In this document: positions 5,286-12,894 of the stretch, piece by piece
How the letters are laid out: every line of letters starts with the position of its first letter
Position numbering within the stretch: position 1 is the stretch's first letter
Translations under genes and position numbers: made by a program
DNA from: Candidatus Geothermarchaeota archaeon
GTDB lineage: Archaea > Thermoproteota > Nitrososphaeria > Geothermarchaeales > JDFR-13
Direction: 5' to 3'
NCBI GenBank assembly: GCA_015523545.1
Contig: WAKB01000014.1
Span: forward strand, 1-48,784
DNA: 48,784 bases
Notes under the pieces: model-generated
Told to the model about the DNA's origin: nothing
Seen by the model: only the letters and a program-made list of their open reading frames with translations
Databases searched by the model: none

Positions 5286-6449
5286 ATGGAGCCGGCCAGG
5301 ATAGAGGTTGTTGGCAGAGGTATAGAAGGGGAGGTGGAGCCGGGTAGGAGGCTTGGAGACGTTGTTAAGGAACTCGGGCTCCGAACCGTCGAGTACATAC
5401 CCGTGGTAAACGGGAGAGTAGTCACCTGGGAATACATGCTTAGACCTGGGGACAGGGCTAGGCTACTACCCGTTGTCTCCGGGGGAGCAGGATGTGAGAT
5501 ATGTGGTGAGGAGGCCGTCTATAGCTATCTAGGAATAAGCCTCTGCAGGGGGCACTACATAGAGTATTTCGAGGGGAAGGTGCTCGATACGATCAGGGAG
5601 TATAGCCTCATACAGCCTGGTGAACATGTAGCGGTAGCTGTTTCAGGCGGGAAGGACTCACTCTCCCTCCTATACCTACTAAACAAGTATAGAGAGGACC
5701 TGGGAATCGAGGTCACAGCCCTATTGATAGACGAAGGGATAAAGGGCTATAGAGACCTGACGATCGAGGACTTTATGAGAATAAACCGAGACCTCGGAGT
5801 CAGATACAGGGTTATAACCTATGAAGAGGTGTTTGGACACGGCCTAGACGAGATAATAGATATAGCTAGGGAGAAGGGACTACCTAGATACCCCTGCTCA
5901 TACTGCGGCGTCTTCCGTAGATACCTACTAAACATCGGTGCAAGGATAGCCGGGGCGGATGTACTAGCGACTGGCCACAACCTAGACGACATTGTCCAGA
6001 CATATGTATTGAACATCGTGACGAATAGCCTCGAGAGGATACTACACCTACTCCCACGGACCAGTGGGGCTGACCACCCCCTCCTAGTACCCAGGGTAAA
6101 GCCATTCTACAGAGTACTCGAGATGGAGACCACACTATATTCAGTCTTGATGGGTCTATACCCCAGGTTCATAGAATGTGTATATGCCCCGGAGGCGCTG
6201 AGAAACGACGTTAGGAACTATGTCAATGAGCTGGAGGAGAGGAGGCCCGGCACTAAATATAAGATCATCAATAGCCTCGAAGACCTAATCAAAAGGTATG
6301 GACCAGCCGTGGCAAGGATAGGCTCCTGCAGGATATGTGGAGAGCCAACCTCCGGCGACATATGTAGAACATGTAGATACCTAGACTCACTAGGCCTACT
6401 CGAGAACCTCCTTAGATGGAGGAGCCGCATAGGCCTAGTGGAGGGATAA
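5286..6449 (+). CDS. TtuA/Ncs6-type tRNA 2-thiolation enzyme with N-terminal ThiS/TtuB-like domain
   Basis: 387 residues from ATG 5286; the frame opens at 5070 but the upstream residues look non-coding. Residues 1-67 form a beta-grasp ThiS/MoaD/TtuB-like domain (VNGRVVTWEYMLRPGD, ending PVVSGG). Residues from 70 on are a TtuA-like ATP-pyrophosphatase: an N-terminal zinc finger (C70, C73, C87, H90), the PP-loop SGGKDS at 120-125, Cys204 and Cys207 in PCSYCGVFRR and Cys298 in FIECVY as the likely 4Fe-4S ligands, and a C-terminal CxxC...CxxC zinc site. TtuA adds sulfur to U54 of tRNA for heat stability, using a TtuB thiocarboxylate as donor. Here donor-like and acceptor enzyme are one chain. Confidence 0.85.
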   Translation: MEPARIEVVGRGIEGEVEPGRRLGDVVKELGLRTVEYIPVVNGRVVTWEYMLRPGDRARLLPVVSGGAGCEICGEEAVYSYLGISLCRGHYIEYFEGKVLDTIREYSLIQPGEHVAVAVSGGKDSLSLLYLLNKYREDLGIEVTALLIDEGIKGYRDLTIEDFMRINRDLGVRYRVITYEEVFGHGLDEIIDIAREKGLPRYPCSYCGVFRRYLLNIGARIAGADVLATGHNLDDIVQTYVLNIVTNSLERILHLLPRTSGADHPLLVPRVKPFYRVLEMETTLYSVLMGLYPRFIECVYAPEALRNDVRNYVNELEERRPGTKYKIINSLEDLIKRYGPAVARIGSCRICGEPTSGDICRTCRYLDSLGLLENLLRWRSRIGLVEG

Positions 6450-8674: not shown

Positions 8675-10636
8675 CTAAATAAGCCTCTCCAAATAATCCT
8701 TGTCAAGAATCACGCCGGGGAAGCCCTCAATAATCCTCCTAGCCTCCTCGGAGCCTAGCCATTCAAGAACCACGTCGTACTCGCCCCTCCCATACCTCTC
8801 GGCGTTGAAGATAATGTCTACATACTCCCATCTCAGGGGTATGAAGTCCACGTCCCTACCCTGTATAGCCACCTCACTCGCTACGCCCACGTCGTAGAGC
8901 CCCTTCTCGACAGCCTTCACAACGGCTGAGTGGGTCCTAGCCTCCACCGAGTAGCCGAATATGCGGCTCCTGAGCTCCCCGGGCTCTAGACCCATTTCAC
9001 GGGCCAGTCTACCAAGCTCCATATCGGTGTATACCCTTATACCGCTCCCTACACTCCTGTTGATGAACCTCACATCCTCCCTAAGGAGGTCTCTCCACCC
9101 AGATATGCCCTTTGGATTCCCCTTGGCAACTACGAAGCCTATCCTCCTCATGAAGCCCCTATGCAGTACGACCCTATCCGCACCATACCTCTCTACATAG
9201 CCGATGTTGTAGACACCATCCTCATCCAGTAGGTGTATAACACCCATGTCTGAGAAGCCCTCCGCACAGTTCTTTAGAGCCGATGTAGAGCCTACATAGA
9301 TCCTCTTACTCCTAACCCCCCTATCCCTATTTAGCCGTCTCATCAACGTGTCGTAGACTATGCTGTGACTACTGAAGGATATTATGTGGGAGGGTCTCGA
9401 CTCCCCTATAAGCCAGGCGTCCGCCCTGTCACCCATCTCGAGGTAGTTCTGGTTCTCCGGGATCACCACGTATCCATCAGCCAGTCGGAGGGTGGCGATA
9501 GCCCCACTATCCGTCTGAATCGGGTAGGCCATATAGCCACTCCCCGTATCCTTGAGGATTACTGGGTGGAGATGCTCGACACCAAAGACGCTGTCTATAG
9601 CTGCACCTACTGTGGTTGATACACGCCTAGCCGTGTCTGTCGGGAGCCTATTCACCCACCTGATAACCGGTGAGAACACGTGTAGATAGACCATCAGGCT
9701 CGAGACTGGAAAGCCGGGTAGACCTATGAATAGCTTACCCCTTATCAACGCTGCCAGTGTAGGCTTTCCAGGCTTAATCCTAAGCCCGTTGAAGAGTATC
9801 TCGGTATCACCTATAGACTCTATAACGTCTCGGAGAACGTCCTTTACACCAACGCTAGTAGCTCCTGAGAAGACGACTACATCACTGGTCTCCAGACCCT
9901 CTTCCAGTAGTCCGGCCATGGACTCAGGAGTATCCCTGGCAACCCCTATGAAGCGTGGTCTACACCCATCCCTAACCAGTGCAGCCGAGATTGCATGGCC
10001 ATTCACATCGTAGATCTGGCCGTCCCCCAGCTCCTCCCCGGGAGGTATGACCTCGTCCCCACTACTTATCACAGCGACCTTCAAACCGTCATACACCTTG
10101 ACCCGGGTGATTCCCAGGCCGGAGAGGATACCTATCTCCCTAGGTGTGAGTAGAGTACCCTCCTCCAACACGCCCTCCCCAAGGGATACGTCGCTACCAG
10201 CGTTCTGTATCCACTCCCCCGGTGGGGAGTAGTGGAAGACGAGGACATATCCATCCTCCAGCTCTGTATACTCCTCCATAACCACCGTGTCTGCACCTGG
10301 AGGTATGGGTGCACCGGTAGCTATCCTAACCGCCTCTCCAGGCCCAACCTCCCTATCGGGCCAGCCACCGGCCTCGACACTCCCAACTAGTCTAAGCTTT
10401 ACCGGGTTGTTCTCCCTGGCACTGGCTATGTCTATACTCCTAACAGCGTAGCCATCCCTCAAACTCCTTGTGAAGGGGGGCAGATCGATGGGGGCCTCCA
10501 CATCCTCCGCCAAGACCCTACCTACAGCCCCCCATACATCGGTCTCGACAACCCTATCTATCTGGCTAAGCCTATCCAGGAGTATCTGTCTAGCCTCCTC
10601 AGGATGGATAAGCCTCTTGAATACATGCCCACTCAT
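8675..10636 (-). CDS. moeA: MoeA fused to a periplasmic-binding-like (PBP) domain
   Basis: 653 residues. Residues 1 to about 410 are MoeA, which inserts molybdate or tungstate into adenylylated molybdopterin: PPFTRSLRDGYAV, the RIATGAPIPPGADTVVMEEY block, SGATSVGVKD and GLPGFPVSS. Residues from about 430 are a PBP/LysR-substrate-domain-like module (RIYVGSTSALKNC, GFVVAKGNPKGISGWRDLL, VKAVEKGLYDVGVASEVA), perhaps sensing metal oxyanion. This fusion is common in archaea. Two MoeA motifs deviate: the usual SxxDGYA and TGGxSxG read SLRDGYA and SGATSVG. It starts with an ATGA overlap on the upstream moeA stop. Confidence 0.9.
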   Translation of the reverse strand: MSGHVFKRLIHPEEARQILLDRLSQIDRVVETDVWGAVGRVLAEDVEAPIDLPPFTRSLRDGYAVRSIDIASARENNPVKLRLVGSVEAGGWPDREVGPGEAVRIATGAPIPPGADTVVMEEYTELEDGYVLVFHYSPPGEWIQNAGSDVSLGEGVLEEGTLLTPREIGILSGLGITRVKVYDGLKVAVISSGDEVIPPGEELGDGQIYDVNGHAISAALVRDGCRPRFIGVARDTPESMAGLLEEGLETSDVVVFSGATSVGVKDVLRDVIESIGDTEILFNGLRIKPGKPTLAALIRGKLFIGLPGFPVSSLMVYLHVFSPVIRWVNRLPTDTARRVSTTVGAAIDSVFGVEHLHPVILKDTGSGYMAYPIQTDSGAIATLRLADGYVVIPENQNYLEMGDRADAWLIGESRPSHIISFSSHSIVYDTLMRRLNRDRGVRSKRIYVGSTSALKNCAEGFSDMGVIHLLDEDGVYNIGYVERYGADRVVLHRGFMRRIGFVVAKGNPKGISGWRDLLREDVRFINRSVGSGIRVYTDMELGRLAREMGLEPGELRSRIFGYSVEARTHSAVVKAVEKGLYDVGVASEVAIQGRDVDFIPLRWEYVDIIFNAERYGRGEYDVVLEWLGSEEARRIIEGFPGVILDKDYLERLI

Positions 10637-11883
10637 CTAGACACCACGCTCCTATAGAGTATTACCTCCACCTCACTACCCTTCTCGAAGCCCTCCACCT
10701 CCTCCGGCACGACCAGGTATCCATCGCCCAGGGCCAGGCTAGAGGTAACCCCTGCTCCAGAGGCATAGATCGGCTCCACCATATAGCTATCCCCCTCCCT
10801 CCACACCCTCACCCTTACATAGTGTCTCAGCCCAGGCTTGGAGGGTACACGCCTCCTGAGGACACCCTTCACCACACGGGGCACATATACACCCCTTACA
10901 CCAGCGAGCTTCTGGACAGCGGGCCGTAGGAAGACCTCTGAGGATATCGCCACAGCCACGGGGTAGCCGGGTAGGCCTAGATATGGCTTCCCAGAGACCT
11001 CGGCTATTAGGACAGGCTTACTAGGCTGTAGAGCCACGCCATGCACATGTACCTCACCAATATCCTCGACAACCCTAGATACAATATCATCCCCACCAAG
11101 CGAGGTCCCACCAGTAGATACTATGAGGTCGCAGCGCGAAGCCATCTCCAGCAAGGTATCCCTAACCGTATCCGGCTCATCAGGTTTGATACCCATGTCT
11201 AATATCTCCACAGGCATTTCCCTGAGGAATCCTCTTAGGAACGGCCTGTTAGACTCCCTTATCATCCCGGGCCCAGGCTTATCCTCGGTCAACTCGGAGC
11301 CGAAGGCCACTATCCCTACAACTGGCCTCCTATAGACCTCAATAGTATCTATCCCTAGTGAGTATAGAGCCGGCAAATCCTGTGGATAGATGACTCGTCC
11401 ACGGGGGACGACGACATCCCCCACCCTGAGATCCTCACCCTTTAGGGAGACGTTCTCATATCTGCTGACGGACTTGTATACATCGATGTAGCCATCCCCC
11501 TCCTCGACATACTCTATCATGACGACGGCATCGCTACCCCTTGGCATCGGGGCACCAGTATCAATCCTCACCGCCTCACCAGGACCCACCTCACCATCGT
11601 ATCCCCTCCCAGTCGTGCTGTAGCCTATGACTCGGAGCCTGATAGGGTTGTTCTGCGACGCGGAGGACACGTCACTACTCCTGACAGCGTAGCCATCCAT
11701 GGCGCTCCTATCGAAGGGCGGTATATCCATTGGTGACGCTACATCTCTTGAGGAGACCCTACCCACTGATTGGGAGACTGGTACCTCCTCAACCTCATCA
11801 ATGGGTCTAACGATCTCGAGGAGCTTGGCAAGGGCTTTATCCACGTACTCGAATCTCTTGAAGCCTCTACGCTCCCTCCTCAT
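10633..11883 (-). CDS. moeA: Molybdopterin molybdenumtransferase MoeA
   Basis: 416 residues with canonical MoeA blocks: PPFDRSAMDGYAVRSSD, IDTGAPMPRGSDAVVMIEY, STGGTSLGGDDIV and GLPGYPVAVA, with an N-terminal linker and a C-terminal beta-barrel (YVRVRVWREGDSYMVEP). It catalyses metal insertion into molybdopterin-AMP. It lies 6 nt after moaA and overlaps the fused second moeA by 4 nt. Two adjacent MoeA paralogues are frequent in archaea and may separate molybdenum from tungsten use (inference). Confidence 0.93.
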   Translation of the reverse strand: MRRERRGFKRFEYVDKALAKLLEIVRPIDEVEEVPVSQSVGRVSSRDVASPMDIPPFDRSAMDGYAVRSSDVSSASQNNPIRLRVIGYSTTGRGYDGEVGPGEAVRIDTGAPMPRGSDAVVMIEYVEEGDGYIDVYKSVSRYENVSLKGEDLRVGDVVVPRGRVIYPQDLPALYSLGIDTIEVYRRPVVGIVAFGSELTEDKPGPGMIRESNRPFLRGFLREMPVEILDMGIKPDEPDTVRDTLLEMASRCDLIVSTGGTSLGGDDIVSRVVEDIGEVHVHGVALQPSKPVLIAEVSGKPYLGLPGYPVAVAISSEVFLRPAVQKLAGVRGVYVPRVVKGVLRRRVPSKPGLRHYVRVRVWREGDSYMVEPIYASGAGVTSSLALGDGYLVVPEEVEGFEKGSEVEVILYRSVVSR

Positions 11884-11889
11884 CAGGCA

Positions 11890-12894
11890 TTAAATGGGAC
11901 ATACACTCCTATCAATATGCTCCCCAATCTCGAAGCCCTCCACCCTATCCGTCTTGAAGAAGGGCTCCCTATTCCTAACCGCCTCTAGGAACTGCCGGAC
12001 AATATACTCGTCGCTATACCCCTTCCTGATATAGGATATGAAGTCTACGTGGTTGTCACTCCTCATTAGGCAGGGCTTGAACTTACCGTCATAGGTAATC
12101 CTTATCCTATCGTTCCCCATGCAGAAGGCGTTGTTCCACATAGGCTTGACAAACTCGACCTTCACACCGTTGTCGAGGACATAGACCATCCTGTTGTGTA
12201 GACTCCTCCTATACTTCTTAACGACCCTAGGCGCAATCATCTCCTCAACCTTGTCGAGGGGGTAGAAGTACTGCTTGAAGAATACTGGGTCGACATTGAG
12301 GAGCTCTATAAACTGGACGATATTCGTCTCCCCACCGCCTAGGGAGTAGCTATAGTCGATCATGTCCCAGACCTCATCCTCATTAATACCCTTGAGGATG
12401 ACCATGTTCAGCTTTATCGGGAGGAGACCCGCGTCGAGGGCTGCCTCCACAGCCTTGAACGTGGCGTCTCTACGATCCATCTTTGTTATGAACTGGTACC
12501 TATCCCTCTTCAGGCTGTGGAAGCTTATGTTGACCCTGTCTAGACCCGCCTCCTTGAGGTCCCAGGCGAGGGTCTCAAGCCTGAAGCCCGTGGTGGTCAT
12601 CGAGATCTCCTCAACCCCTGTGGACTTTATCCTAGCCACGATCTCGACGATATCCTTCCTCAGCATCGGCTCCCCGCCCGTGATCTTGATGTATCTAACG
12701 CCGAAGCGTCTCAGGACCCTGACTACCCTCTCGATCTCCTCCGGGGTCATGTAGCGGGGCTCCTCATGTATACCCTCCTTGTGGCAGAATATGCAGGAGT
12801 AGTTGCATCTATAGCTGCTGTTTACGCTTATCCTAGCACCGATGACCGGCCTGTTGAAACGGTCGACCAGCACCATACTCCCTAGGACACCCAC
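11890..12894 (-). CDS. moaA: GTP 3',8-cyclase MoaA
   Basis: 334 residues from GTG 12894, or 328 from ATG 12876. It is a radical SAM enzyme making the first molybdopterin precursor from GTP. The radical SAM motif is CNYSCIFC (C30, C34, C37), followed by ITGGEPMLR and MTTTG. The C-terminal second cluster usually uses CxxC plus a later Cys; here the region reads FCMGNDRIRI and then KPCLM, so the middle Cys is Asn. The C-terminal GlyGly of bacterial MoaA is also absent; the chain ends with a Cys-containing tail (SVCPI). It heads the moaA-moeA-moeA operon. Confidence 0.9.
   Translation of the reverse strand: MGVLGSMVLVDRFNRPVIGARISVNSSYRCNYSCIFCHKEGIHEEPRYMTPEEIERVVRVLRRFGVRYIKITGGEPMLRKDIVEIVARIKSTGVEEISMTTTGFRLETLAWDLKEAGLDRVNISFHSLKRDRYQFITKMDRRDATFKAVEAALDAGLLPIKLNMVILKGINEDEVWDMIDYSYSLGGGETNIVQFIELLNVDPVFFKQYFYPLDKVEEMIAPRVVKKYRRSLHNRMVYVLDNGVKVEFVKPMWNNAFCMGNDRIRITYDGKFKPCLMRSDNHVDFISYIRKGYSDEYIVRQFLEAVRNREPFFKTDRVEGFEIGEHIDRSVCPI

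Follow-up and report, generated by a model that had tools for sequence, protein, structure and literature searches.

Sulfur carriers fused N-terminally to the enzyme that they serve, with a Gly-Gly (GG) motif at the junction, are known from several systems in which the partner is molybdopterin synthase and cleavage after the second Gly is needed for activity: M. tuberculosis MoaX requires cleavage after Gly82 (PMC4326299), DRJAMM cuts D. radiodurans MoaD-MoaE (PMC8832034), and HvJAMM1 cuts a linear SAMP1-MoaE fusion, giving active enzyme (PMC4443979). HvJAMM1 also takes SAMP2 off NcsA (PMC4048286). In Caldiarchaeum subterraneum, ubiquitin and SAMP precursors extend past GG by a short tail, which is trimmed by Rpn11 or a JAMM protease, and CsJAMM cuts the SAMP precursors (PMC6043591). 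In tRNA thiolation, in contrast, carrier and enzyme, i.e. TtuB and TtuA in Thermus and SAMP2/UblA and NcsA in archaea, are separate proteins and the carrier has a free C-terminal GG (PMC7138817, PMC4048286, PMC11323500). In the TtuA-TtuB complex this free C-terminus coordinates the [4Fe-4S] cluster of TtuA (PMC7138817), and a single ThiS-type carrier of Thermococcus is used for both thiouridine positions (PMC11323500).

The window, i.e. the whole stretch of 48,784 nucleotides analysed here (Candidatus Geothermarchaeota archaeon, contig WAKB01000014.1; genome G000, about 90% complete), encodes both families in a single open frame of 387 aa that starts with the ATG at 5286. Its features are:

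5286..6449 (+): fused gene, ThiS/SAMP2/TtuB-type sulfur carrier plus NcsA/TtuA-type tRNA thiolase, from profile and structure-sequence matches
5286..5486 (+): ubiquitin-like sulfur-carrier domain, residues 1-67
5481..5486 (+): internal Gly66-Gly67, with the proposed cut after Gly67
5487..5492 (+): A68-G69 linker; congeners instead terminate the carrier here (TAA) and begin ttuA (ATG)
5493..6446 (+): tRNA thiolase part, residues 70-387
5493..5555 (+): N-terminal zinc finger, residues 70-90 (C70, C73, C87, H90), from sequence and conservation in the family alignment
5643..5660 (+): PP-loop SGGKDS, residues 120-125, invariant in the family alignment
5895..5906 (+): Fe-S cluster cysteines C204 and C207, with full or nearly full conservation in the family alignment
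6177..6179 (+): third Fe-S cluster cysteine C298, likewise invariant or nearly so
6327..6374 (+): C-terminal zinc ribbon, residues 348-363, from a profile match and the family alignment

An earlier note, made from the sequence alone, had described residues 1-67 as ThiS/MoaD/TtuB-like and ending in SGG, and the profile searches agree: residues 1-70 match Pfam ThiS (PF02597) significantly (E=3.7e-7, 31 bits, cut-off 22.5), and the carrier domain matches NCBIfam PRK08364 (1.9e-11) and solved SAMP2 (5lda_B, 1.1e-7), while a profile built from 25 relatives matches the structures of SAMP2, TtuB and ThiS. Residues 1-67 thus match the profiles of the beta-grasp carrier family. The GG at the free C-terminus, however, is lacking in the encoded chain, as the translation reads VVSGG (GG being residues 66-67), A68, G69 and then zinc-finger Cys70, just as the note had it. 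The note's span of 5286-5500 does hold the carrier, but the domain ends at 5486 and the remainder belongs to the first zinc-finger residues.

Residues 70-373 match NcsA (6scy, 3.5e-56), TtuA PH0300 (5mko, 8.3e-51) and Thermus TtuA, and retain the PP-loop, all three cluster cysteines and the two zinc fingers intact. As to the tRNA position modified, 34 (NcsA) or 54 (TtuA), the fused protein scores 196 bits with the NcsA and 183 bits with the TtuA model, both far under the cut-off. The genome encodes two further NcsA/TtuA-like proteins; one of them (L002) scores 209 with TtuA versus 148 with NcsA, and the other, the third paralogue of the set (L003:877-1848), has a degenerate PP-loop, YDGSKPS, and is perhaps a non-catalytic partner.

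A protein of the same architecture was found in a second species, also a metagenome assembly ('Nitrososphaeria archaeon', G003, locus L012 on JALWXN010000004.1); it was assembled independently, has the same SGG-AG-C junction and shares 87% protein identity with the window's fusion. GG is therefore kept in both species known to have this type of fusion; its conserved loss in intact fusions, which the earlier note would have taken as a refutation, is not seen. In the remaining two genomes of the genus (G001 and G002) there are two genes: the carrier ends VVSGG-TAA and the ATG of the enzyme follows one base later (GGTGGATAATATGGATAGATGT), as compared with GGGGGAGCAGGATGT at the window's junction. 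From GG to the zinc-finger Cys codon the fused form is 7 nt shorter than its congeners, without stop and start and in frame. Comparison of these junctions indicates that the fusion arose within the genus, when a net deletion of about 7 nt took away the carrier stop and the ttuA start.

The adjacent carrier-enzyme pair is itself widespread, occurring in Desulfurococcales, Pyrodictiaceae and other Thermoproteota, and the two genes often overlap there, with the start codon of the enzyme within the GG codons (GGTGGCTAAGTGC). In a maximum-likelihood tree the fused pair is sister to the unfused enzymes of G001 and G002, and all four belong to a clade whose crenarchaeal members mostly come with an adjacent carrier gene (support 100/99), while the best-matching enzymes of six other genomes of the window's family are placed elsewhere; gene transfer from crenarchaea is possible. 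Among the matches listed in a draw of 398 genomes no further GG-keeping fusion was found. Six long-looking proteins (G145, G186, G340, G253, G349 and G040) were rejected as fusions, their upstream sequence being unrelated. In several relatives (L013, L105-L110) carrier and enzyme are separated by just one in-frame TGA or TAG; stop readthrough was considered there and dismissed, since an ATG, GTG or TTG follows closely and ordinary initiation is enough. The carrier of the same gene pair in G328 has a short natural tail, SGG-RVRI, and in G413 and G286 a separate carrier-like ORF just upstream of ttuA (L121:922-1125 and L122:1718-1921) ends in RSAG rather than GG.

Comparison of the two fused species gives a dN of 0.115 and a dS of about 1.9, which is saturated, for the carrier domain, and a dN of 0.073 and a dS of 0.98 for the enzyme part. 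In view of this purifying selection we rejected a decaying carrier domain. Each of codons 64-70 (V S G G A G C) differs between the two species, always synonymously, and VVSGG is invariant in 25 of 25 aligned carriers. Hence, the tail is kept as it is in working carriers and not eroded like a mere linker.

The AlphaFold2 model of the fusion is confident overall (mean pLDDT 93.5, pTM 0.86) and weakest in the junction block, residues 61-70 (mean pLDDT 70), as for a flexible link, although few sequences stand behind its carrier part, as MAFFT misplaced the carrier-only rows of the alignment. The best PDB matches in Foldseek are TtuA chains (5ztb_B, 1.4e-25), including those of the TtuA-TtuB complexes 5ztb and 5gha. 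Gly67, peptide-bonded and only two residues ahead of the zinc finger, could not form the thiocarboxylate needed for cluster binding. The reasoning of the earlier note, i.e. that the internal GG must be freed for thiocarboxylation unless the domain works without a thiocarboxylate, stands.

We favour the former and put at roughly 0.7 the probability that the gene encodes a linear precursor, which would be cut after Gly67, most likely by the JAMM protease of the genome, into carrier and thiolase. According to this scheme a carrier of the SAMP2/TtuB kind would be made head-to-tail with the thiolase it serves, and cleavage by a JAMM1-type metalloprotease would yield equal amounts of the two. The freed carrier would end in VVSGG and the thiolase would start with Ala-Gly-Cys, its N-terminus thus having the length of unfused MAKC or MARC homologues minus the Met. 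The carrier could then be adenylated by an E1 of the MoeB/UbaA type and converted to a thiocarboxylate, which would give its sulfur to the [4Fe-4S] cluster of the thiolase for the formation of 2-thiouridine in tRNA.

The components that such a pathway would use are encoded in the genome. A JAMM protease gene lies at G000:C6:27259-27558, and its closest solved relative is Pyrococcus JAMM1 (5lda_A, 7.3e-23), the crystal partner of which is the same SAMP2 that matches the window's carrier domain. Thus a ubiquitin-like (Ubl) domain with GG at the partner junction and a JAMM in the same genome, the two marks of a JAMM-processed fusion, occur together. The gene is also found in G003 and in G002, so that its presence is not specific to fused species; none was found in G001, which is 85% complete. 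An E1 of the MoeB/UbaA type and free GG carriers are present elsewhere in G000, as are rhodanese-domain proteins, and G003 encodes an E1 as well. Outside the genus, G350 has a JAMM1-like gene that runs in the same direction as a ttuA homologue and overlaps its 3' end (L142:52-1460), which is an independent link between JAMM and thiolase; the G350 enzyme groups with those of the GG-less fusions described below.

The fused carrier is not the only one in these genomes to run past GG. MoaD of G000 (L004, G000:C12:104968-105204) reads PPVSGG and continues for 21 aa (GCLNSLL...) before the downstream moaE, and MoaD of G003 (L081) continues after PPVSGG for 15 aa (SRFKPPA...) that are unlike the G000 tail; in G001 and G002 MoaD ends at GG. 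As MoaD needs a free GG end to work in molybdopterin synthase, the unlike tails point to trimming. Moreover, in both fused species a carrier-like domain is fused in frame to an 8-oxoguanine glycosylase (YVSGG-SLET...; L009, G000:C1:269067-269216 and downstream, and L094 in G003), scoring 6.4e-4 with ThiS, just under the cut-off, and 3e-47 with Ogg-HhH, while in G002 (L095) carrier and glycosylase are separate and the carrier ends SGGI-stop. Three of the five GG carriers in each fused genome are hence without a stop right after GG and the other two end at GG, which is a pattern and not a statistic, the sample being small and the two genomes belonging to sister species. Of the 18 GG carriers in six genomes of another genus, 17 have GG at the very end and the remaining one is longer by one residue. 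In G000, G003 and G002 a ThiS/MoaD-like protein (L007, L091 and L090, respectively) stands in tandem with a GG carrier; as a conserved SPRALFVL/V end replaces GG, it is probably not a carrier.

In another family (G135, G403 and G423; L134-L136) a TtuA-type enzyme likewise has a carrier-like domain fused directly to it, but the domain has lost its GG (SIPGR or LPRGR). Homology of the domain to the carriers is supported by hhalign (probability 94.7, E 6e-8), and the two complete fusions fall in a different clade from that of the window. In the model the junction is highly ordered (block 61-70, pLDDT 96), and a JAMM was found in none of the three genomes, one of which is 99% complete.

This independent fusion, rigid and in genomes where no JAMM was found, is an argument that the window's chain, too, could stay whole, with the carrier as a fixed docking or regulatory module and the sulfur coming from a free carrier or from sulfide. 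Other GG carriers are present in G000 and could serve the thiolase, NcsA and TtuA enzymes are able to use sulfide (PMC11323500, reviewing earlier work), and the mere two residues between GG and zinc finger could hinder a protease. Nevertheless, we regard an uncut docking module as unlikely: the VVSGG tail is lost in the independent fusion but kept under synonymous change in the window's lineage, the fused genomes encode a JAMM, and two other carriers of the same genomes pass GG, one of them a MoaD, which cannot work without a free GG end. A fusion that is never cut and whose internal-GG carrier acts in thiolation without a C-terminal thiocarboxylate, or is a permanent, built-in ubiquitin-like tag on the thiolase, seems improbable. 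Of the two possibilities left by the earlier note, cleavage is thus favoured for the window's lineage by the synonymously kept GG, the JAMM and the two further extended carriers, whereas function without a thiocarboxylate fits the separate GG-less fusion.

If the chain is cut, the cut might be made by another protease or by the chain itself. The MoaX-cutting protease was not identified in the MoaX study (PMC4326299), and the JAMM occurs beyond the fused species; yet the enzymes known to cut archaeal carrier linkages, both linear and isopeptide, are of the JAMM1 type (PMC4443979, PMC4048286, PMC6043591), and both fused genomes encode one, which makes a different cutter doubtful. Finally, an artefact of assembly or sequencing, or separate production of the enzyme from an internal start, is highly improbable. 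Both genomes are metagenome-assembled, but two independent assemblies agree on the in-frame junction while differing synonymously across it, so that we rejected misassembly. In-frame candidate starts do exist, an ATG at codon 51 in the window and a GTG at codon 64 in L012, but none is common to both species, and internal initiation would in any case not give the carrier a free GG. We therefore rejected it.

Compared with the described systems, the window's fusion shares with MoaX, MoaD-MoaE and SAMP1-MoaE the N-terminal carrier and the GG at the junction, but its partner is a tRNA thiolase, and the cut shown to be needed for activity there is one that we infer here by analogy. With TtuB-TtuA and SAMP2/UblA-NcsA it shares the two families and the expected sulfur chemistry, although its GG is internal, and like the Caldiarchaeum precursors its carrier is extended past GG, albeit by a whole enzyme. 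Fusions of a Ubl to a pathway partner (Ubl-Cgi121, Ubl-E1, MoaD-MoaE and MoaD-MoeB) appear in two archaeal surveys (PMC2948915, PMC11237513). Passages of the 2010 Ubl survey already describe a gene association of ThiS with PP-loop ATPases but no Ubl-PP-loop thiolase fusion (PMC2948915); TtuA is absent from the main text of the 2024 survey, where MoaD fusions are listed (PMC11237513). In the open-access literature searched, we found no description of a carrier-thiolase fusion. A GG-junction fusion as such is known, and what would be new is the tRNA thiolase as partner and the clear recent origin.

By analogy, the ubiquitin-precursor way of making carriers may thus extend from molybdenum-cofactor synthesis to tRNA thiolation, with the transition from abutting genes to a gene fusion caught within a single genus. 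That three of five GG carriers dispense with the stop suggests that a reliable GG-cutting protease renders the stop codon dispensable, and eukaryotic ubiquitin fusions may have begun in this way. The contrast with the GG-less fusion, in genomes where no JAMM was found, makes this idea testable. Near the fused gene, at 8678-12894(-) of the window, there is also a molybdenum or tungsten cofactor cluster, made up of a MoaA-type radical SAM gene and two genes of the MoeA type, of which one includes a PBP-like domain.
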